NCBI RefSeq assembly: GCF_022267315.1
Contig: NZ_JAIKLE010000024.1
Location: 1-64,000 of the forward strand
DNA: 64,000 nucleotides
Reading direction: 5' to 3'
Source of the DNA: Maribellus maritimus
GTDB taxonomy: Bacteria > Bacteroidota > Bacteroidia > Bacteroidales > Prolixibacteraceae
Position 1 is the first letter of the stretch. Each line of letters begins with the position of its first letter. Position numbers and translations under genes: made by a program. Below the pieces are notes generated by a model. That model saw only the letters and a list, made by a program, of their open reading frames with translations. It was not told where the DNA came from and searched no databases. Positions 17,005 to 61,771 of the stretch are shown here, one piece after another.

Positions 17005-18354
17005 TTAGCGGTTCTGAAGGTCGTTTCTAAATGAGGTACGGACACACCGGAAACCGATATATGATTTTGCTGTATCCTGGTATTCATAAGTTCGTGTTGA
17101 TGTTCGAATAAAATAAGCCATGTCTTTCCATGAGCCACCTCTGATAACTTTTCGTTTCATTATAGGCGGATCGTCCGGTTTTGCGTCATATTGTAAGTCC
17201 GGATTTAAGTCACTCACAACATCATAAGCTCCTTCATAAAAGGCTGTACTCGTCCACTCTGCTACATTTCCTGCCATATCATATAGTCCGAACGGATTGG
17301 GATCAAATTCTCCCACTTTCATTGCTGTTGTTGTGGTGGGACTGTCTGCGACATAGTTTCCCCGCAACGGTTTAAAATTGGCAACAAAACAACCTTTTTG
17401 ATTCCGTGTATAGTAACTTCCCCAGGGATACATCGTATTTAGCAATCCTCCCCGGGCTGCCATTTCCCATTCACTTTCGGTAGGAAGTCTGTAGTCGTGG
17501 GCGGGTGTTTCTTTAAAACGCGAATTGTATACCGTTTTTAAATTGGTTCGCCATTGGCAAAAAGCTCTGGCTTGTTTCCATGTAACTCCAACCACGGGGT
17601 AATCGTCGAAACCCACATGTGAAAAATACTTCATTGTAAACGGTTCGTTGTATGTATAGGCAAAATCTCTTACCCAACATAAAGTGTCAGGATAAATCGG
17701 AACAATTTCATGCATCAAAAAGCTACTTCGGTTTTCAATCGGGACCATCTCACCATTTGGTTGCATTACAGCGCCGTTATATCTCTGATTTTTAAAATCG
17801 TAGTTATTTTTTCGTTTTGCAGCTTGTTTGTAATCTACCCAGTAATATTCATAAATAAGTTTTCTGGAGTCAATTTCTTTTTTGTACGCAAAACGCTCCT
17901 CTTCAGGAATATAAAGCTCTTCCATTGCCATCTGGTAGTCTGGATCTTTCCAGTCTATCTCTTCATCCCAGTTAAGTATTGGATTCTCAAGCGGAACCCC
18001 ATAAAAATCTTCAGAGATAAGGAAATCTGGATCAGCATCTCCCAGCAATCTTCTGGCTATTGAATCCCTCACCCAAAATACAAATTGGCGGTATTCGTTA
18101 TTGGTAATTTCGGTGTCATCCATCCAGAAAGCTTCCTGGGATACTACGCGTGTTGGAGTTCCAATGGGCATAATTTCATCGTCCGAAGGTCCCATCCTGA
18201 ATTTGTCGCGTTGTATATAAGCCATTCCAAAGGGACTGGGTTCAAACCATTCACCGCTGACTTTTTCTTCTCCGGGAAGATAGAGGTTGGGTTTTTGACA
18301 TGAATGGAAAAGCATTCCTAAAATTGGAATTATATATAGAATTGCTTTTTTCAT
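17005..18354 (-). CDS. Second GldK-like SUMF1-domain lipoprotein
   Basis: This 449-residue lipoprotein (lipobox MLFHSC) is a close paralogue of GldK at 21954, with the same SUMF1/formylglycine-enzyme-like fold and nearly co-linear motifs: FRMGPSDDE, DDTEITNNEYRQFV, YPDTLCWVRDF, VVGVTWKQARAFCQWR, YRLPTESEWEMAARGG and VIRGGSWKD. The formylglycine-enzyme catalytic cysteine pair is absent, so it is structural. GldK forms periplasmic rings with GldN at the outer membrane in type IX secretion. A terminator at 18426-18455 separates this gene from gldN, so it is transcribed on its own. It could be GldJ-like, but it is much closer to GldK in the region compared. Confidence 0.8.
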   Translation of the reverse strand: MKKAILYIIPILGMLFHSCQKPNLYLPGEEKVSGEWFEPSPFGMAYIQRDKFRMGPSDDEIMPIGTPTRVVSQEAFWMDDTEITNNEYRQFVFWVRDSIARRLLGDADPDFLISEDFYGVPLENPILNWDEEIDWKDPDYQMAMEELYIPEEERFAYKKEIDSRKLIYEYYWVDYKQAAKRKNNYDFKNQRYNGAVMQPNGEMVPIENRSSFLMHEIVPIYPDTLCWVRDFAYTYNEPFTMKYFSHVGFDDYPVVGVTWKQARAFCQWRTNLKTVYNSRFKETPAHDYRLPTESEWEMAARGGLLNTMYPWGSYYTRNQKGCFVANFKPLRGNYVADSPTTTTAMKVGEFDPNPFGLYDMAGNVAEWTSTAFYEGAYDVVSDLNPDLQYDAKPDDPPIMKRKVIRGGSWKDMAYFIRTSTRTYEYQDTAKSYIGFRCVRTSFRNDLQNR

Positions 18355-18425
18355 CCGATTTTTTACCCTTATAATTTTATATTAGTTAACGCAAAACAGC
18401 ATGTTTAATTATACGCTTTTGCGAA

Positions 18426-18455
18426 TAAAAAAGCCTTATGAAAACATAAGGCTTT
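18426..18455 (-). terminator. Intrinsic terminator of the porP-gldKLMN operon
   Basis: AAAGCCTTATG and CATAAGGCTTT form a perfect 11-bp stem with an AAAA/TTTT loop. On the minus strand it is followed by a run of T residues (GGCTTTTTTATT). It lies 19 bases beyond the gldN stop and before the second gldK. Confidence 0.85.
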
Positions 18456-18473
18456 CAGAATGTTTTATATTTT

Positions 18474-19325
18474 CTAATATTCCCAAAGATCCTGCTCAAA
18501 ATTGAAAATCTCATTTTCAATTCTTTTTGATTCAAGCATTGCTTCCTTCCCGGTTAAATAGTCATTGATTCCACGGTTATTATAAACGTTTGATTCCTTG
18601 GTAATATAGCTATTGAAGTATCTTTTTATAAAAAGATCATCGAAAGACATTTGGCTTGCATCATTATTTGGATTCAAAACCAAATTGCTTGCGAGTAAAT
18701 CTCTAACTTCGGGGTAATATACCCAAAAAATTTGCTGGCGCTGCACTTCTCCTGAGGCATCATTTTCACGAACGTATTCGCGGATCGGGCAAAGTCCAAC
18801 GATACGTACATTTAGAGTAGAGCTTTGTTTATCAAAGTACCATTCTTCTTTAACCATGTACTGTTTTATTTCATTTGGACGTATTTCACCTTCAATAGTG
18901 ACTTTCTCCATTTCTCCGGTGTCAAAATTTCGTCTTTCAATTGTAGAAGCTTCTGCACCAAATGATTCCTCCACCTGTTCGTAGGTCATAGGTATTTTGA
19001 AGTCATCATCTTGTCTCGCGTCGTACGGTGTAATTTGTCCGTTTTTAATTCCTTCGAGAAGGAGCGTAATCAAATTCACCTTACCGCCCATTTCTGTGGT
19101 TGGATAGTACAACGGCAGATTCATCTTTTCACGCAAATCGATGATACGCCACACTTTTTTTGACCAAAAAATATCGGCTTCGCGAGCACTTGGCAGTGGC
19201 ATTGGTTTTTTTTGGAAAACATCGGTACGTTTGTATGCACCGTTTACAATTTGTGCGTTAGATTGTTTCTCGGCCAAAGCAAATGTAAACACTAGTATTC
19301 CTATATAAACAACTAACTTTTTCAT
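18474..19325 (-). CDS. gldN: Type IX secretion/gliding protein GldN (PorN)
   Basis: The 283-residue periplasmic protein has a signal peptide (1-24, ending SNAQ) and the GldN/PorN body: ADIFWSKKVWRIIDLREKMN (49-68), YPTTEMGGKVNLITLL (74-89), and YYPEVRDLLASNLVLNPNND in the C-terminal half. GldN associates with GldK rings on the periplasmic face of the outer membrane. It begins 3 bases after the gldM stop and is the last gene before a strong terminator. Confidence 0.92.
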   Translation of the reverse strand: MKKLVVYIGILVFTFALAEKQSNAQIVNGAYKRTDVFQKKPMPLPSAREADIFWSKKVWRIIDLREKMNLPLYYPTTEMGGKVNLITLLLEGIKNGQITPYDARQDDDFKIPMTYEQVEESFGAEASTIERRNFDTGEMEKVTIEGEIRPNEIKQYMVKEEWYFDKQSSTLNVRIVGLCPIREYVRENDASGEVQRQQIFWVYYPEVRDLLASNLVLNPNNDASQMSFDDLFIKRYFNSYITKESNVYNNRGINDYLTGKEAMLESKRIENEIFNFEQDLWEY

Positions 19326-19328
19326 AGC

Positions 19329-20939
19329 TTAAATAATTTTAAAGGAAATTGAATTGAGATCCCTTGATTCACCATTTTCTCCAACTGCCTTAATATTTGT
19401 AATATGAACCCAACTTTGTGGGTTTAACCTTTTGAATTCATTTAATTGTTCCTGTGTAAAACGATTTGAAGTTGCAGGATATCTATTGGTGTATCCACCT
19501 GCCCCTGTTGTTTCAACAGTAAACTCGGTAACCGTATATTCAAAATCGAAATCAAAGTCTTCCAAGACGGCTAAAACTCCCTGTTGAATTACCAATTCTT
19601 CTTTACGGATATCCCCACTTGAACGGCCAGCAATTTGTGCAACCGGGTCCGGCACTGGTTTTACTCTCCAATCTGAAGTTCCGACCAGCCTTCTTGTTCC
19701 CCCTATATTTGCATATACCGAAACTTTTGTGCGACGCCCCTGTTCGTCTAAATCTGTTGGTTCGATAACATAAGCTTCGCCTTTTTTAGTAACCTTCCCG
19801 TTGGTCATCGAAACCTCAAGGTTTTCTTTTGGTATTCCACCGCCACCTACATCAAATGGGTTTTCAAGTCCGCGATAAAATACGTTCATTTTTGTAGCTG
19901 ACATTGTAACACTCGGAGCAGTAACCTGGTAGTCCTGTTCAAAACGGTAATTTTGAATTATGCCCGCAGGTGTTTTGTATTTTATTAATCCACCCCAGCT
20001 AAATTCACCAACTTGATTTGCACTTGCGGTGTAGGTTGCTTTTCCGTCAATCACTGGCATTTGTCTGCCATTAATGAATATTTCGGGTTGCTGAGTTGTA
20101 TCTTCTGCGGCCAGAAAAACTTCTGCCACATATTCATCTCCTTGCAAAACTACGCTAGAAGTTGGAATAACCTGAGCCGCCAGTTTGTTAAATTTGAATG
20201 AACCTGCATCAATTTGCGCATAAAGGTACTTGATGAGGTTGGCTTCAGAGTTTTTTACATCGATTTGAATTTTGGAAAGCAAAGTTAAAACGGCAACAAT
20301 TGGTTTATCTTCAAAATGTTCAGATTCCCATGATTTGCTTTCTCCTCCCTCGGCCAGATCGACAGGAGGATCTGAGGTTTCCAGTTCCTGAAGAATTGTT
20401 TCTCTCAATTCTACATCATCTTCCGAAAGCATTCCAACCAACGTTTCTCTAAAATTTTCGATTTCAATTTTTAATTCCTCACCCTTTTTTTGGGTTATCA
20501 TCATTTCTGAAGGAACATTCAGATCCTGCTCATTTTTTAGCTGTAACGTGTCTCCATTTTCTGTGTAAAGATAAAAACCATCAGAGGAGTATGGATTTTC
20601 TTCGTTAACCGGTTCACTTCCAGAAGACTTTACCAATTCCTCTTTGAGTTGAGAAATGTATGAAATTAACGATTTTGTATCGTCACGAATGATATCCGCC
20701 TTATTTTTCCACTCCTCTGTTTTTGTTGGGTTTTCGATAAATGCTTGTTCAAAAGACGAATAAACCTGTGCATTTTGCATGTCCACAGCTTTCATTGTTT
20801 GCATTAAGCTTGAATCCACAACCTTAAATGCCTCCAATACTTCTGCGGCTACATTTAATGCCAACATTGCCGTTAGGACAATGTACATCATGTTTATCAT
20901 TTTTTGCCTCGGGGTTTCCGGACAATTTTTTGCACCCAT
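19329..20939 (-). CDS. gldM: Type IX secretion/gliding motor protein GldM (PorM)
   Basis: The 536-residue protein opens with the diagnostic NCPETPRQKMINMMYIVLTAMLAL, whose hydrophobic part is the single inner-membrane helix (about 13-32). The long periplasmic part consists of tandem beta domains, including PSVTMSATKMNVFYRGLENPFDVG (about 345-368). GldM with GldL forms the proton-motive-force-driven motor that powers type IX secretion and gliding, spanning the periplasm to GldK/GldN. It starts 15 bases after the gldL stop. Confidence 0.93.
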   Translation of the reverse strand: MGAKNCPETPRQKMINMMYIVLTAMLALNVAAEVLEAFKVVDSSLMQTMKAVDMQNAQVYSSFEQAFIENPTKTEEWKNKADIIRDDTKSLISYISQLKEELVKSSGSEPVNEENPYSSDGFYLYTENGDTLQLKNEQDLNVPSEMMITQKKGEELKIEIENFRETLVGMLSEDDVELRETILQELETSDPPVDLAEGGESKSWESEHFEDKPIVAVLTLLSKIQIDVKNSEANLIKYLYAQIDAGSFKFNKLAAQVIPTSSVVLQGDEYVAEVFLAAEDTTQQPEIFINGRQMPVIDGKATYTASANQVGEFSWGGLIKYKTPAGIIQNYRFEQDYQVTAPSVTMSATKMNVFYRGLENPFDVGGGGIPKENLEVSMTNGKVTKKGEAYVIEPTDLDEQGRRTKVSVYANIGGTRRLVGTSDWRVKPVPDPVAQIAGRSSGDIRKEELVIQQGVLAVLEDFDFDFEYTVTEFTVETTGAGGYTNRYPATSNRFTQEQLNEFKRLNPQSWVHITNIKAVGENGESRDLNSISFKII

Positions 20940-20954
20940 AACTGAATCTTCAAA

Positions 20955-21926
20955 TTATTTTTTATAACTCATTGCTCCCAGCATGTTGCCATAAATTGTA
21001 TTTAAGGCCTCCAGGTTTTTATTCAATTGCTCTGCGTTATCTTTATATTTCTTCAATTCATCAACAGAAGATGCCAGAATCTCATTCATTTGAGTTAGAT
21101 CGTTATTGAACTTTTGGCTCGCAACCATTTGAGATTTCGTGTCGGTTAACTGCGCCTCAAAATTTTTGTTTAGTTCATTAATATTTTGATTTAGTTTCTG
21201 GAGATTGCCGGAATACTGTTTTGAACCTTCTCCGATGGTATTTAAACCACTGGTTATCGAGCTTGAGGCCATTTCAAATGAGTTTGCCAGGTTTTTTCCT
21301 GCTTCGGCAAGTTGAGATGAGAACTGCTCACCGGTTTGTTGCATCGTCGATATTGCACTTTTCCCTGATTCTGACAACTGTTTTGCCGTATTAATATATG
21401 ATTCAGCAAGATTTCCTACTGATCTGTTTATGGTCTCGTTGGCTTTGTTGTTAATTTCCGCAAATGTACCCATTGATTCAGACGCTGAACCGATGTTTTT
21501 GACGTATAAGTCAGTTGCCAGAGTAGCTGCTGAAATATCGCTGATTCCTCTTGCTGTATTACTTAACTCATTTAAACCTTTTCCCACTTTGTCCAACAAC
21601 TCAGGAGTAAGCTCTGAGCTTGAAAACAATTCATCAATACCTTTCTTATTTCTTGGACTTATTTCGTCCATATCCATAATTTCATAATCCTCTCTTAATT
21701 CAGGATAAACCTTACTCCATTCAGGCATTTCCAAAGGTGGTTCGAAGGCAGATAAAAAGAATATAAATGCTTCCGTTATCAAACCGATAGTTAGAAAAAG
21801 TCCCGAATGATTCCAGTGCTGGAGTTTAAAAAGTGCTCCAAGCATTACTACAGATGCGCCCCATCCGTAAACGTATCCCATGAATGTTTTCCAACGCTTA
21901 GTCTTAAAAATTTCTCCCAGGTTCAT
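20955..21926 (-). CDS. gldL: Type IX secretion/gliding motor protein GldL (PorL)
   Basis: The 323-residue protein has two N-terminal membrane helices (about 15-34 and 40-60, around LGALFKLQHWNHSG), the stator-like part of the GldLM motor, then a long cytoplasmic region. The C-terminal 200 residues are rich in Ser, Asn and Gln with heptad character (LNQNINELNKNFEAQLTD, LKKYKDNAEQLNKNLEALN), probably a coiled coil. The length resembles PorL of Porphyromonas and exceeds the shorter flavobacterial GldL. It lies 27 bases after gldK. Confidence 0.92.
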   Translation of the reverse strand: MNLGEIFKTKRWKTFMGYVYGWGASVVMLGALFKLQHWNHSGLFLTIGLITEAFIFFLSAFEPPLEMPEWSKVYPELREDYEIMDMDEISPRNKKGIDELFSSSELTPELLDKVGKGLNELSNTARGISDISAATLATDLYVKNIGSASESMGTFAEINNKANETINRSVGNLAESYINTAKQLSESGKSAISTMQQTGEQFSSQLAEAGKNLANSFEMASSSITSGLNTIGEGSKQYSGNLQKLNQNINELNKNFEAQLTDTKSQMVASQKFNNDLTQMNEILASSVDELKKYKDNAEQLNKNLEALNTIYGNMLGAMSYKK

Positions 21927-21953
21927 ATCTTTAGATATAGGTTAATATTCTTT

Positions 21954-23297
21954 TTAGTTGAATTCGTCTCCGAAAGTAGAACGCACACATCGGAATCCTA
22001 TAAAAGATTTCGTCGTATCCTGATATTCATAACTTCTAGTTGATACTTGAATATAATGTGCAATATCTTTCCATGATCCTCCCCGAATTACTTTTCTTTT
22101 CATAACAGGAGGGTCGTCTGGTCTAGCATTATATGTAAAAGAAGGATTTATATCACTGAAATATTGGTATCCGGCTTCATCGTATGCTGTTTCTGTCCAT
22201 TCGGCTACATTTCCTGACATATCATAAAGGCCGTATTCATTCGGTTCGTAACTGCCGACTTTCATTGCCCCAATTCCACCATCTTCAACATAATTTCCAC
22301 GAAGCGGCTTAAAATTGGCCAGAAATACACCTTCTTCATCCCTTGCGTAGTATCCGCCCCAAGGATACATAGAATATGTTTTTCCTCCTCTTGCAGCATA
22401 TTCCCATTCAACTTCTGAAGGCAAACGGTATGCCTGCAGTTCTGGCTCTCCTCTTGAGTTTAAATATGTGGTTTGAATTTTTGTTCTCCAACTGCAAAAT
22501 GCACGAGCCTGTTCCCAGGTCACGCCTACAACAGGGTATTCAGCAAATCCCGGATGCCAGAAATACCTGGTAGCCCATGGTTCATTAAACGAATATGTAA
22601 AATCTCTTATCCAACACAATGTATCCGGATAAATGTATGCCTCATCCTGCATAATAAAAGAAGAGCGGTTTTCAATTGGAATCAGTTCTCCTTCAGCATT
22701 ATAAACATTTCCCTCATAGCGCTGATTTTCAAAATTGTAGCTATTGGAGCGTTTGGCTGCTTGTTGAATATCGATCCACCAGTACTCATAAAGCAATTTT
22801 CTTGTATCGATCTCCTTCTTTCCAAAAAATCTTTCATTTTCAGGTATATATAGGTCTTGCATTGCCATTTGCATATCGGGGTCTTCCCAATCAATTCTTT
22901 CTCTCCAGTTTATTCTCGGGGGGTCTATGGGATTCCCTTCCCTGTCTTCTGTGATTAAGAACTCGGGATACTGATCACCTAACATTCTTCTTGCAATTGA
23001 ATCTTTCACCCAATTGGTAAATTGCCTGTATTCAGAATTTGTAATTTCGGTATCATCCATCCAAAATGCTTCTTGAGATACCGTTTTAGTTGGGAGCATT
23101 GACTTACTTGGATCCTGGTCGCTTGGCCCGATATTGAAACTTCCCCTTCTGACATACACCATGCCATAAGGTTGAGATTCACTCCACTTGCCCCTGTCTT
23201 GTACTCCCACCAATTCACCATTCCCTCCGGATTGGTTACAACTTGTAAATGTCAAAATGCTCAAAAGTACAATTCCGAAATAAAGAAGTTTTTTCAT
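21954..23297 (-). CDS. gldK: Type IX secretion/gliding lipoprotein GldK (PorK)
   Basis: The 447-residue lipoprotein (signal ending LTFTSC) has a SUMF1/formylglycine-enzyme-like fold with FNIGPSDQDP, DDTEITNSEYRQFTNW, VVGVTWEQARAFCSWR, YRLPSEVEWEYAARGG and VIRGGSWKD. It lacks the enzyme's catalytic cysteines and is the outer-membrane ring component of the type IX machine. It is placed between porP and gldL, the canonical order, so this is the true GldK. The paralogue at 17005 lies outside the core operon. Confidence 0.93.
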   Translation of the reverse strand: MKKLLYFGIVLLSILTFTSCNQSGGNGELVGVQDRGKWSESQPYGMVYVRRGSFNIGPSDQDPSKSMLPTKTVSQEAFWMDDTEITNSEYRQFTNWVKDSIARRMLGDQYPEFLITEDREGNPIDPPRINWRERIDWEDPDMQMAMQDLYIPENERFFGKKEIDTRKLLYEYWWIDIQQAAKRSNSYNFENQRYEGNVYNAEGELIPIENRSSFIMQDEAYIYPDTLCWIRDFTYSFNEPWATRYFWHPGFAEYPVVGVTWEQARAFCSWRTKIQTTYLNSRGEPELQAYRLPSEVEWEYAARGGKTYSMYPWGGYYARDEEGVFLANFKPLRGNYVEDGGIGAMKVGSYEPNEYGLYDMSGNVAEWTETAYDEAGYQYFSDINPSFTYNARPDDPPVMKRKVIRGGSWKDIAHYIQVSTRSYEYQDTTKSFIGFRCVRSTFGDEFN

Positions 23298-23321
23298 AGC
23301 ACAATAAAAATATGGCTTTTT

Positions 23322-24281
23322 CTATAAAAATCTTATACTCTTATATTTTTGGTTTCGGTTTTTCTCCAAGTCAATAGAATACGTCACAAAAAATTCGTGT
23401 GATGCAAAACCATAACTCCCTATCACTGAGGTAACTAAATCGAAAGAATATCCCACTTTTAGTCCGTTCAGCATTTCCAAACCCATTAACAACGAAACCG
23501 CGTCGTTTAAACGGTAAGAAATCCCGCCCCAAAATTTTTCATCATAAACAATTCTGCCTGTTACATCGAACTGCCACCCGGCCAGGTCGGTTTTTAACAA
23601 AGCAGTGGGTTGCAATTCAAATAACGGGTCAGCTAATTTAATATTGTATCCTCCCATCAAATAATAATGCCTTGCAAGGAAGGTAGTTGCTTGATCTGAA
23701 AACTCAATTTCCGCCTGATTTAGGTGAGTTGCAGATATCCCTAAAAAATAACTATTGGATGAAAGGTAAAGTCCAAATCCCACGTCCAGAGCCATTTGGC
23801 TTACTTCTCCCTGCGGAATAGCAGGGTCAGAACTTGGATCAGTATAAATTTCAGATGTAAGGTCTTTATTATCGCCCCCTTTCCAATCTCCGTTATATCC
23901 TTTTGTCATTAATCCCATTGATAGTCCTATTCCCAATTCACCAAAATTAACCGTCGTTTTGTAAGCGTAACTAAAGTTTACCGATGTGTTTTCTTCATTC
24001 CCAATCTGATCGCTCACAATATTTAAACCTATTCCACCTTCCGAACCAAATGGCTTTATTGCTGCGTCCATACTAAAAACCAGTGTTTTTGGAGCACCTT
24101 TAAAGCCCTCCCACTGATATCGGTTTAACAAAAGTCCACTTATTGCATTCTCTGCTCCGGCGTAACCCGGATTAACCCCCAATTTATAGTACATATAATT
24201 GGTGTATTGCGGATCTTGCTGACTATAAGACGCTAAATTTAACACAAATACTAAAAATAAAAAAGAAATTATTTTTTTCAT
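23322..24281 (-). CDS. porP: Type IX secretion outer-membrane protein, PorP/SprF family
   Basis: The frame is open to 24314, but the start at 24281 gives a clean signal peptide (MKKIISFLFLVFVLNLASYSQ). The mature protein opens with the family signature QDPQYTNYMYYKLGVNPGYAGA and continues as a 14-strand-like beta-barrel to YKSIRFL. PorP/SprF proteins work with the type IX translocon and anchor or secrete surface partners such as SprB or PorE. The gene is first in the porP-gldKLMN operon, 24 bases before gldK. Confidence 0.88.
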   Translation of the reverse strand: MKKIISFLFLVFVLNLASYSQQDPQYTNYMYYKLGVNPGYAGAENAISGLLLNRYQWEGFKGAPKTLVFSMDAAIKPFGSEGGIGLNIVSDQIGNEENTSVNFSYAYKTTVNFGELGIGLSMGLMTKGYNGDWKGGDNKDLTSEIYTDPSSDPAIPQGEVSQMALDVGFGLYLSSNSYFLGISATHLNQAEIEFSDQATTFLARHYYLMGGYNIKLADPLFELQPTALLKTDLAGWQFDVTGRIVYDEKFWGGISYRLNDAVSLLMGLEMLNGLKVGYSFDLVTSVIGSYGFASHEFFVTYSIDLEKNRNQKYKSIRFL

Positions 24282-24361
24282 CCGTTTTAACTGCATCTTA
24301 CGTTTCTTTTTCAAACCGGTTTAAAGAAATAAAAAATTGTTTTCTGTAACAAACTTTTACC

Positions 24362-24395
24362 ATTTGGTATGCAAAGAACGTTAACAATTTGGTAT
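24362..24395. repeat. Direct repeat ATTTGGTAT ahead of the T9SS operon
   Basis: ATTTGGTAT occurs at 24362-24370 and again at 24387-24395, 25 bases apart, between the arginase-like gene and porP. The first copy is also part of TACCA-TT-TGGTA. It may be a regulator site for the type IX operon, or may be chance in AT-rich DNA. Confidence 0.3.
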
Positions 24396-25552
24396 TATTT
24401 TGACAATTCATCTATTTTTTGAACAAACTTTAACCAATTCTCTGGTATTTCATCACCCGATGCTTCATCATATTCTTTCTTTGAACAGGCAATTAAATAT
24501 TTATTTCCTTTTATAGATTGAATCTCAAACCACCACCGCGCCGTTTCTGTACATTTGTAAAATACAATTGGCTCGTCAATCTCTTTTACTTCTACTTTAT
24601 ACATTTGCAGATTTTCAGGTAATTCCTTTTCTTTTTGTACTCTGTTAAGAAATCCTTCCAAAAAATACCAGATAATCTGTGCTGAAAGTTTAAAAGATAT
24701 CCCGTTATTATCTTTATCCCAATCGGTTTCAAAAATACCAAAAACTTTCAATTTATTACTCAAACCTGCATACTTTGCCAACTGGCAAGCCTCTTCGCTA
24801 TATAATCCATTGGGGTTTTTAACCTGACTTCCGTTAATTTCAGAATATTTCAATGCATTGCTATCAAACGAAAGAACATCCGTATTGCGAAAAACAGGTT
24901 CGGCATTTATGGAATCTTCGTGTAAAAGTCCAAGCCTTACATGCGTAACAAGCCCTTTGGTTTTGGAAAAAAGTTCTCTGGGAACCAGGTGTGTTTGGTA
25001 TCCGACGAGATTAAACTGAAAAATTTGCGGATTTTTTTGAAAAACCCTGGTCAAAAAGTTGGTGGATGAAAAGGTTTCCCTGCCTTTCTTTACATCAAGT
25101 ACCGAATCAACAGATGTGAGAGAAAAAAAGGTTTCACTCTTAAATGCTTCACAAATGCCAACTGTTAAGTCCTGGCTGCCACCAATTAACAAAGTAACGA
25201 TGTTTAATTCAGTAAAATATTCTATAATATCACGTACTGCAAGAAAAGCTCCTTTTTGACTTTTTGTTTTTTTTAGTTGGCCGAAATCGACAATACTTAG
25301 CTTCCTGTCAATGGTTGAAAGCCGGTATAACTCTTCTCTTATTTTTTCTGTTGGATTTGTTTTGCCGCTTTTCCATGTTCCATTGTAAAAGGGGACGCTA
25401 AACACAACTACTTCAATTTTATGAATATTGGCTGGAGTTATTTTGTTGGTTGATTTTTCGATGGTTTGCCCCAAAGAGTATTTCCATTTTTCTTTGAATT
25501 TGTCGGAATACTTCGAAAAATCAATCGGTTCAAAATATTGTCGTACATCCAT
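24395..25552 (-). CDS. Arginase/formimidoylglutamase-fold protein with degenerate metal site
   Basis: This 385-residue ureohydrolase-fold protein keeps the frame of the arginase motifs but not the ligands. GGDH reads GGSQ (124-127), DAHxD reads DSVLD (149-153) and SxDxD reads SFDSN (about 226-230). Three of six manganese ligands are therefore replaced and hydrolase activity is unlikely. It lies between topA and porP, a neighbourhood I recall in other Bacteroidota, where the protein is usually annotated formimidoylglutamase. A structural or accessory role linked to type IX secretion is an inference from position only. Confidence 0.75.
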   Translation of the reverse strand: MDVRQYFEPIDFSKYSDKFKEKWKYSLGQTIEKSTNKITPANIHKIEVVVFSVPFYNGTWKSGKTNPTEKIREELYRLSTIDRKLSIVDFGQLKKTKSQKGAFLAVRDIIEYFTELNIVTLLIGGSQDLTVGICEAFKSETFFSLTSVDSVLDVKKGRETFSSTNFLTRVFQKNPQIFQFNLVGYQTHLVPRELFSKTKGLVTHVRLGLLHEDSINAEPVFRNTDVLSFDSNALKYSEINGSQVKNPNGLYSEEACQLAKYAGLSNKLKVFGIFETDWDKDNNGISFKLSAQIIWYFLEGFLNRVQKEKELPENLQMYKVEVKEIDEPIVFYKCTETARWWFEIQSIKGNKYLIACSKKEYDEASGDEIPENWLKFVQKIDELSK

Positions 25553-60238: not shown

Positions 60239-61771
60239 ATGCTCAAAAAATTAGGTTCATATTTACGAAAGAAAATCCTTCTGATAATTTTTATAGGATT
60301 TGTGTTAGGGATAATAATAAGTTTGTTATCTCTGAAAGTTATAGAGGAAACATCTACAAATGAATCATGTGAAGTTTGTCACGTTCATCCACATGTTTTT
60401 GATTCATGGAAATTATCAGTTCATTATGATACACGCGTTGGAATTCATATTGGATGTGTCGATTGCCACCTTCCTCCCAAAGGAGAAGGATATTTACCTG
60501 AAAAGGTAAAAGCCTTCGCCAGAGATGCTTATGGTTATGTTTTTAAAGATAGCGCAGATTTTAACTGGGAAGAAAAATCAACTTTGGAATATGCAAAAAA
60601 GCATGTCTTCAAAGAATCATGTGTTCATTGTCACGAAAATTTGTTCCCGCTTACATTAACCAAGGAAGGACAGGATGCACATTTATATTACTCACAGAAC
60701 GAAGAGGAGCTACGGTGTATTAACTGCCATTTACATGTTGGACATTACGATCCCAATGCGTTACATGCAAAAAATGTTGAGTTTGGAAGTACGGGGAATG
60801 AAAATCTGGAAATTTTTGCAGAAGCTGCAAATGTTACCACACACGAAGATTATACTGAAACTGTTCCGGGAACAACTCTTTCATTTAATATGAAGGCGAT
60901 TCCGGGTGGAACATTTAAGATTGGTAGTCCCGAGGGAGAAGAGCTTCGTGAGGCAGATGAAGGACCACAAAAGGAAGTTAAAATTAGTCCTTTCTTTATG
61001 GCAGAAATAGAGGTGAGTTGGGATGAGTATTTGACTTTCTATAGTGCTACAGCTGCAGAAGGCAGATCGACAGATACCGAAGGAACACGCACCCAACAGG
61101 ATGTTGACGCAATTTCAGGACCAACTCCTCCGTACGGACAACCCGACCAGAATTGGGGTTTAGGAGATCGACCGGCAATAACAATGAGTTATCATTCTGC
61201 CGAAACCTATTGTAAATGGTTGTCTCAGGTAACCGGTAAAACTTACCGCTTACCAACCGAAGCAGAGTGGGAATATGCAGCCCGTGGCGGTACCGAAACT
61301 CCATTCTTCTTTGAAGGAGAGCCAAAAGATTTTGCAGAAAAAGGATTTATCGGTAGCCTTTTCGGTAAAACCAGTGACGTAATCAATAATTATGTAGTTT
61401 TTGATGGTAACAGCCAGGCTAAAACTGAGGAACCCGGTTCAGTGGAAACAAATCCGTTTGGATTGAAAAATATGCTGGGCAATGCAGCTGAGTATTGTTT
61501 GGATTGGTACGCAGAAGATGCTTACGAAAAGCTACAGGATGGTGCTTTGGATCCAAGAGGACCGGCGTCAGGAGAGGAACATGTCATAAGAGGCGGATAT
61601 TTTAACAGCGAAATTGGTGATGTCAGGAGTGCAGCCCGGGATTATACAAAATCTGAAGCGTGGTTGAAAACCGATCCTCAAATGCCAAAAAGTATTTGGT
61701 GGTTGTCCGACTGCAATTACATAAGTTTTAGAGTTGTTTGCGAATTTGATGAAAAAACCGGAAAAAATTAA
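60239..61771 (+). CDS. Tetraheme NapC/NirT-type cytochrome c fused to a SUMF1 domain
   Basis: This 510-residue protein has a single N-terminal membrane helix (about 13-33) and a NapC/NirT-like multiheme domain with four CxxCH sites: CEVCH (44-48), CVDCH (73-77), CVHCH (128-132) and CINCH (160-164). NapC/NirT proteins oxidise membrane quinol and pass electrons to periplasmic enzymes. Residues about 215-505 form a SUMF1/formylglycine-enzyme-like domain (PGGTFKIGSPEGEE, YRLPTEAEWEYAARGG, HVIRGGYFNSEIGDVRSAA) without the catalytic cysteines. The fusion suggests an electron-delivery subunit with a built-in binding domain. It is followed after 38 bases by a Tat-exported oxidoreductase, the probable partner. 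Confidence 0.85.
   Translation: MLKKLGSYLRKKILLIIFIGFVLGIIISLLSLKVIEETSTNESCEVCHVHPHVFDSWKLSVHYDTRVGIHIGCVDCHLPPKGEGYLPEKVKAFARDAYGYVFKDSADFNWEEKSTLEYAKKHVFKESCVHCHENLFPLTLTKEGQDAHLYYSQNEEELRCINCHLHVGHYDPNALHAKNVEFGSTGNENLEIFAEAANVTTHEDYTETVPGTTLSFNMKAIPGGTFKIGSPEGEELREADEGPQKEVKISPFFMAEIEVSWDEYLTFYSATAAEGRSTDTEGTRTQQDVDAISGPTPPYGQPDQNWGLGDRPAITMSYHSAETYCKWLSQVTGKTYRLPTEAEWEYAARGGTETPFFFEGEPKDFAEKGFIGSLFGKTSDVINNYVVFDGNSQAKTEEPGSVETNPFGLKNMLGNAAEYCLDWYAEDAYEKLQDGALDPRGPASGEEHVIRGGYFNSEIGDVRSAARDYTKSEAWLKTDPQMPKSIWWLSDCNYISFRVVCEFDEKTGKN

Follow-up and report, generated by a model that had tools for sequence, protein, structure and literature searches.

Two GldK paralogues flank gldLMN in Maribellus maritimus and may share out ring building and PorG attachment

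Introduction

The type IX secretion system (T9SS) of Porphyromonas gingivalis is encoded in the order porP-porKLMN, and its PorK-PorN ring contains an FGE-fold lipoprotein, PorK, in which a single protein has both the structural and the PorG-bonding role. A recent study (Liu et al. 2025, PMC12635249) reports that Cys356 of PorK and Cys343 of Flavobacterium johnsoniae GldK are covalently bonded to PorG and calls this residue completely invariant; GldK Cys343 bonds SprF as well as PorG, and Type A export depends on it. How the rotation of the motor is transmitted to the T9SS translocon has yet to be settled, and Liu et al. (2025) proposed that the covalent GldK-PorG disulfide does this. Here we analyse a 64,000-nucleotide stretch of the genome of Maribellus maritimus, a member of the Prolixibacteraceae (contig NZ_JAIKLE010000024.1, positions 1 to 64,000; hereafter the window), in which gldLMN are bracketed by two gldK genes, gldK1 and gldK2. 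This locus resembles that of P. gingivalis in its gene order, in the FGE-fold lipoprotein and in the alignment of a GldK2 cysteine with PorK Cys356. However, the two roles united in PorK are here apparently carried by two paralogues.

The gliding track of F. johnsoniae, with GldK, GldJ and GldN, offers another comparison, since it also contains more than one FGE-fold lipoprotein and a GldK cysteine disulfide-bonded to outer-membrane proteins. Nevertheless, GldJ is a distant paralogue, whereas the second protein of M. maritimus arose by duplication of GldK inside a single family. In addition, none of the six PorP/SprF paralogues of M. maritimus that we read, out of seven, showed a cysteine tail of the SprF type. 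The F. johnsoniae genes gldN and gldO are likewise adjacent duplicates of a T9SS ring subunit but are described as partially redundant (PMC9127263), whereas gldK1 and gldK2 show complementary loss of conserved features. Within titles and abstract beginnings of the open-licence literature, we found no description of such a GldK pair, a search that does not prove absence. A T9SS phylogeny contains neither "duplicat-" nor "paralog-" in its main text and mentions Draconibacterium a single time, for its wrong position in some trees (PMC7323717).

Results

A second full-length GldK lies behind gldN

On the minus strand of the window, the genes follow each other as porP, gldK1, gldL, gldM, gldN and, behind a terminator hairpin, gldK2 (Table 1). 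The initial annotation had taken the SUMF1 lipoprotein encoded at 17005 for a second GldK, and this is borne out by an identity of 60% between GldK1 and GldK2, aligned over their entire length, and by scores of 576 and 534 bits, respectively, with the GldK/PorK profile TIGR03525 (curated cut-off 350 bits). On the GldJ profiles TIGR03524 and TIGR03530, GldK2 stays far below the threshold, with 146 bits (cut-off 383) and 137 bits (cut-off 458). In each copy a hydrophobic stretch is followed by a cysteine, at position 19 or 20, in what appears to be a lipobox-like context. Grouping of the second copy with GldJ, the outcome that would have spoken against duplication, was not seen: in the tree, the one GldJ-like row, used as outgroup, is set far apart by its branch length, and GldK1 and GldK2 nest within the GldK rows. 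Judged by profile and tree, the gene at 17005-18354 is a GldK duplicate and not GldJ. These two are the only full-length GldK matches in the M. maritimus genome (7.33 Mb, G000), which also carries a GldJ-like gene on another contig; its best piece scores 371 bits versus the GldJ cut-off of 458.

The reactive cysteine is kept in GldK2 and lost from GldK1

Alignment to PorK of PDB 9mzu places Cys322 of GldK2 (QKGCF) on the reactive cysteine, with the valine of GldK1 (EEGVF) opposite. We then compared this site across relatives. For this comparison we built an alignment of 218 rows, 213 of them grouped, from which proteins under 400 residues, repeated identical rows and unassigned rows were dropped. 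A cysteine occupies the reactive site in none of 79 GldK1, in 57 of 76 GldK2, and in all single-copy rows of the family (26/26) and outgroup rows (32/32). The residues found there in GldK1 are diverse (V 44, E 7, K 7, T 6, S 4, I 3, N 3, R 3, A 1, D 1). Three proteins read separately, namely GldK1 of L044 (frameshifted; V), GldK1 of L131 (T) and GldK2 of L134 (mis-called open reading frame; A), leave the pattern unchanged. When the clade of cysteine-less GldK2 is set aside, the reactive cysteine is the only column that is kept in single-copy, outgroup and the 57 cysteine-bearing GldK2 rows and lost in GldK1, at a threshold of 90%. Both copies are otherwise well conserved, with 156 columns in GldK1 and 121 in GldK2 at 95% or more. 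Since GldK1 lacks the cysteine and is nonetheless a GldK by profile and tree, this residue is not invariant across the GldK family.

PorG and GldK2 have lost their cysteines in the same clade

All 19 GldK2 without the reactive cysteine belong to one genus-level group, g18, and carry S (11), N (6), H (1) or R (1) instead. Two of these rows are the named loci L057 and L058, whose contigs match the g18 genomes G063 and G043 by coordinates. One g18 genome, G056, branches before the cysteine-less members and keeps the cysteines of both GldK2 and PorG.

To compare the partner, we considered the last 20 residues of PorG as its tail. PorG was matched in all 47 family genomes searched, in 46 of them over the Pfam cut-off. 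The NCBIfam PorG model NF052316, scanned on the PorG of M. maritimus only (G000:C146:28023-28700), gave 148.7 bits versus a cut-off of 130, and the tail of this protein, GKEACPAYD, holds the C-tail cysteine. The presence of a PorG tail cysteine agrees with the presence of the cysteine in any GldK in 47/47 genomes (33 with both, 14 with neither). In the 14 cysteine-less genomes, the PorG tails end differently, with a sequence of the type LDWGIWNKNRKE. A search of solved structures for PorG returned none that was relevant.

The N-terminal arm motif is kept in GldK1 and mostly lost from GldK2

An N-terminal motif, GELxG, follows the lipobox-like site in 79/79 GldK1 and in 48/56 rows from single-copy genomes or outgroups, but in only five of the 77 rows labelled GldK2; this criterion is our own reading of the alignment and not a published one. 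The five exceptions (L057, L128, L138, L139 and L140) all come from the cysteine-less clade, in which PorG, where examined, has lost its cysteine as well. Residues P247 and Y350, Q417 in part, have also been lost from GldK2. In the 2.4 Å structure, PorK is ordered from Gly32 and its long N-terminal arm crosses the neighbouring PorK (PMC12635249). By our count along the PorK alignment, Gly32 is the first residue of a GGELTG stretch. Given that the cysteine is lost in GldK1, and GELxG and the other residues in GldK2, the losses of the two copies are largely complementary. The initial annotation was right about the duplicate, but it did not include the point that the copies are not interchangeable.

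A terminator and promoter-like elements surround gldK2

The strong terminator proposed between gldN and gldK2 is present in the window as a predicted hairpin of -15.4 kcal/mol (z -3.44; none of 200 shuffles as good), whose core occurs once in the window. A simple terminator scan did not list this hairpin, perhaps because stem and T tract overlap. In relatives, a conserved hairpin sequence, AAGCCTTATG and CATAAGGCTT followed by T, is found at -7 kcal/mol or better in 65 of 83 gldN-gldK2 gaps, a set in which some genomes are represented twice, by a named locus and by a genome handle. The terminator is not universal: eleven gaps are shorter than 40 nucleotides (among them L134, with its mis-called frame) and seven longer ones have no hairpin at this threshold.

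The gldK2 leader also contains a promoter-like element, AAT-N16-CGTT, which is found again upstream of porP with the same spacing. It was observed in 42 of 66 distinct gldK2 leaders of 61-259 nucleotides, with 0 to 4 occurrences at any of the remaining spacings between 10 and 24, and upstream of porP in 47/57 two-copy loci versus 20/67 other loci. It was absent from 78 gldN coding controls and from 47 porG upstream regions, so that membership of porG in this promoter class was rejected. As a pattern alone it is weak, [ACT]AAT-N16-CGTT having 14 matches on both strands of the window, and its weight comes from its conservation in leaders. TAnnTTTG is the -7 promoter motif of Bacteroidota; it was also rejected for the gldK2 leaders, where it occurs in 5/73 against 6.2 expected.

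The common element points to co-regulation of gldK2 with porP-gldKLMN. The earlier idea that gldK2 might be expressed under other conditions therefore finds no support in the promoter-like element that both share. The extracytoplasmic function sigma factor SigP of P. gingivalis binds the porP promoter region (PMC4800418), and by analogy a SigP-like factor might read AAT-N16-CGTT here.

The duplication is widespread in the family

In the GTDB family of the window, GldK was matched at E<=1e-80 in 135/140 genomes; by hand count, 99 of them have two or more GldK and 36 have one. Four genera (g19, g24, g25 and g33) account for 32 of these 36, and the remaining four come from two-copy genera and have a genome completeness of 66-85%. 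Named two-copy members include Draconibacterium orientale, D. sediminis, D. mangrovi, Maribellus sediminis and Tangfeifania diversioriginum. The order gldK1-gldL-gldM-gldN-gldK2, whose conservation had been proposed as a check, was found in all 78 stretches with both copies, some genomes being counted twice.

Wider surveys scored at most four candidates per genome and might therefore overlook a second GldK that has diverged strongly. In the order sample, 357/392 genomes have a GldK match at E<=1e-70, and outside the family only G214 (family f71) has two, possibly a split gene or an independent duplicate. In the phylum sample, 101/392 genomes, all of the window's class, have a match at E<=1e-45, with two matches in the window's own genome only.

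In an IQ-TREE tree of 76 rows, with the loop around the reactive cysteine masked, the single-copy genera cluster with the outgroups, away from all duplicates (support 98/92), as they do in the tree with the GldJ-like outgroup. The GldK1 and GldK2 copies of g20, g21 and g35 pair together (85/86), and GldK1 and GldK2 each need two changes on this tree. Holding GldK1 together or GldK2 together was not rejected by the approximately unbiased test (p 0.27 and 0.26), and one ancestral GldK duplication is the simplest reading of these sequences.

A few genomes carry further copies. G066, from the otherwise single-copy genus g19, has two porP-gldKLMN units (L145 and L146) with the cysteine in both GldK. 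A third GldK was seen in G012 (L213:7400-8755; 552 bits as GldK), at some distance from the main unit and next to a divergent porP of the opposite strand, and, in a like position, in G010 (L212); others are present in G119 (L177:3057-4397) and G043 (L123). The reactive site is Asp in all three third copies read (G119, G012 and G043).

Discussion

We propose that GldK was duplicated in the common ancestor of most of the Prolixibacteraceae and that its ancestral tasks were then divided by duplication, degeneration and complementation. GldK1, made with GldL, GldM and GldN, has retained the structural features and would supply most subunits of the GldK-GldN ring or track; its reactive cysteine gone, it would have lost the means of bonding to partners in the outer membrane. 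GldK2 probably has a promoter of its own, downstream of the terminator. It would be inserted into, or docked on, the GldN-based ring that it has in common with GldK1, and a disulfide between its Cys322 and the C-tail cysteine of PorG would pass ring movement to the translocon. We consider it probable that GldK1 assembles into the ring or track with a GldN common to both copies and that GldK2 serves as the PorG-attaching subunit. A mixed GldK ring, already suggested in the initial annotation, is the most economical model because the unit has one GldL, one GldM and one GldN, and it is compatible with the single GldN of 11 of the 13 two-copy genomes tested. A minority GldK2 subunit would suffice, given the statement of Liu et al. 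on F. johnsoniae (PMC12635249).

PorG is the likely client, since six of the seven PorP/SprF matches of M. maritimus, including the porP of the window (23322-24314), were read and have no cysteine in the last 40 residues. SprF-type twin-cysteine tails were sought in 30 of 33 PorP/SprF matches from six genomes: 27 have no cysteine in this region, and the exceptions are L283 of G129 (22 and 29 residues from the end) and L286 (19) and L294 (18, in a 148-residue fragment) of G060.

On a broader view, the covalent clutch of the T9SS may sit on a separate gene, with a cysteine-free GldK1 track, limited PorG attachment points supplied by a separately transcribed GldK2, and one clade in which neither partner has kept its cysteine and secretion must proceed without the disulfide; we give this picture even chances of being correct.

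Several observations weigh against the division of labour outlined above. The GELxG motif is not universal, as the eight of 56 single-copy or outgroup rows without it, all outgroups, show, and its loss could place GldK2 outside the ring. The agreement between GldK and PorG cysteines lies on a single branch of the tree and is therefore one coincident loss, not 47 independent observations. Pairing of the g20, g21 and g35 copies makes two duplications possible. The porP upstream regions also show spacings of 13 (32/57), 24 (14) and 12 (13), partly from repeated AAT. That GldK2 is scarcer than GldK1 is a guess, and 10/83 gaps have no room for a terminator. In the two g21 genomes (L153:9466-10374 and L154:9585-10349), which have two GldN matches each, gldN2 directly follows gldK2, giving porP-gldK1LMN-gldK2-gldN2; this arrangement fits separate rings in g21. 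By contrast, among the single-copy genomes tested, G092 has two GldN and G129 has one plus a weak partial match, so that GldN number does not simply track GldK number and the argument drawn from it is modest. AlphaFold models had a mean predicted local distance difference test score of 46 and 63 and, being too poor, were left unused.

The g21 arrangement raises the question of whether there are two separate rings, GldK1-GldN and GldK2-GldN, of which only the second would be coupled to the translocon and the first would have a different function, such as a gliding-like movement over surfaces together with GldJ. The gldK2 gene does resemble a transcription unit of its own in most loci, and M. 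maritimus has a GldJ-like gene and seven PorP/SprF family matches. However, most two-copy genomes tested offer only one GldN for both rings, and no SprF-type twin-cysteine client was seen for the first, the PorP/SprF tails of M. maritimus that were read being free of cysteine; we consider two rings rather unlikely. Alternatively, GldK2 could be an adaptor outside the ring line, for instance a second row linking PorG to the GldK1-GldN ring. The model for F. johnsoniae places GldJ, of related fold, in an additional row that runs antiparallel (PMC12635249), and the motif mostly lost from GldK2 is located where the ordered N-terminal arm of PorK begins. Yet GldK2 has otherwise the full length of a GldK and its 121 conserved columns, which makes an adaptor improbable.

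The high GldK scores of both copies would also suit a redundant dosage duplicate, in which the loss of the GldK1 cysteine is drift of no functional meaning. Against this stand the reported need for this cysteine in Type A export in F. johnsoniae (PMC12635249), its presence in every one of the 57 GldK2 rows that lie outside a single clade and absence from all 79 GldK1, the joint loss of the GldK2 and PorG cysteines in the cysteine-less clade, and the otherwise high conservation of GldK1. Such redundancy would be very surprising.

If GldK1 and GldK2 are divided as we propose, the family offers a natural experiment in which the cysteine is separated from the structural GldK, so that coupling could be removed without removing the ring. 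The cysteine-less subclade, with both partners changed, asks whether the GldK-PorG bond is really required, and the covariation provides comparative support for the GldK-PorG link beyond the two model species.

Additional features of the locus

Table 1. Genes and predicted signals of the porP-gldKLMN-gldK2 locus in the window
Feature	Coordinates	Strand	Remarks
porP (PorP/SprF family), first gene of the unit	23322..24314	-	TIGR03519 247 bits, PF11751
gldK1, 447 aa	21954..23297	-	lipobox-like Cys and N-arm GELVG kept; Val at PorG-reactive Cys site (EEGVFLANF)
gldL, motor subunit	20955..21926	-	TIGR03513
gldM, motor arm	19329..20939	-	TIGR03517
gldN	18474..19325	-	TIGR03523, PF19841; sole GldN match found in G000
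gldK2, predicted GldK lipoprotein, 449 aa	17005..18354	-	PorG-reactive Cys322 kept (QKGCFVANF); without GELxG arm motif
predicted intrinsic terminator, gldN/gldK2 gap	18427..18457	-	stem AAGCCTTATG/CATAAGGCTT, T tract
promoter-like element TAAT-N16-CGTT	18388..18413	-	ends 33 nt before gldK2 start
promoter-like element AAAT-N16-CGTT before porP	24377..24401	-	spacing as before gldK2

Some open frames of 767-815 residues suggested PorP-GldK or GldK-GldL fusions. These were rejected: a stop codon follows porP in 22/22 loci read, and gldK1 has a normal end in 25/26 loci, the other, L044, being frameshifted.

Two further sequences resemble GldK. At 61157-61645 (+) of the window, a 511-residue open frame gives a weak GldK match and probably encodes another FGE-domain protein. 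In a relative from the same order (G424:C1:2263430-2263999), a GldK-like match lies within an open frame of 2885 residues, possibly a fusion.

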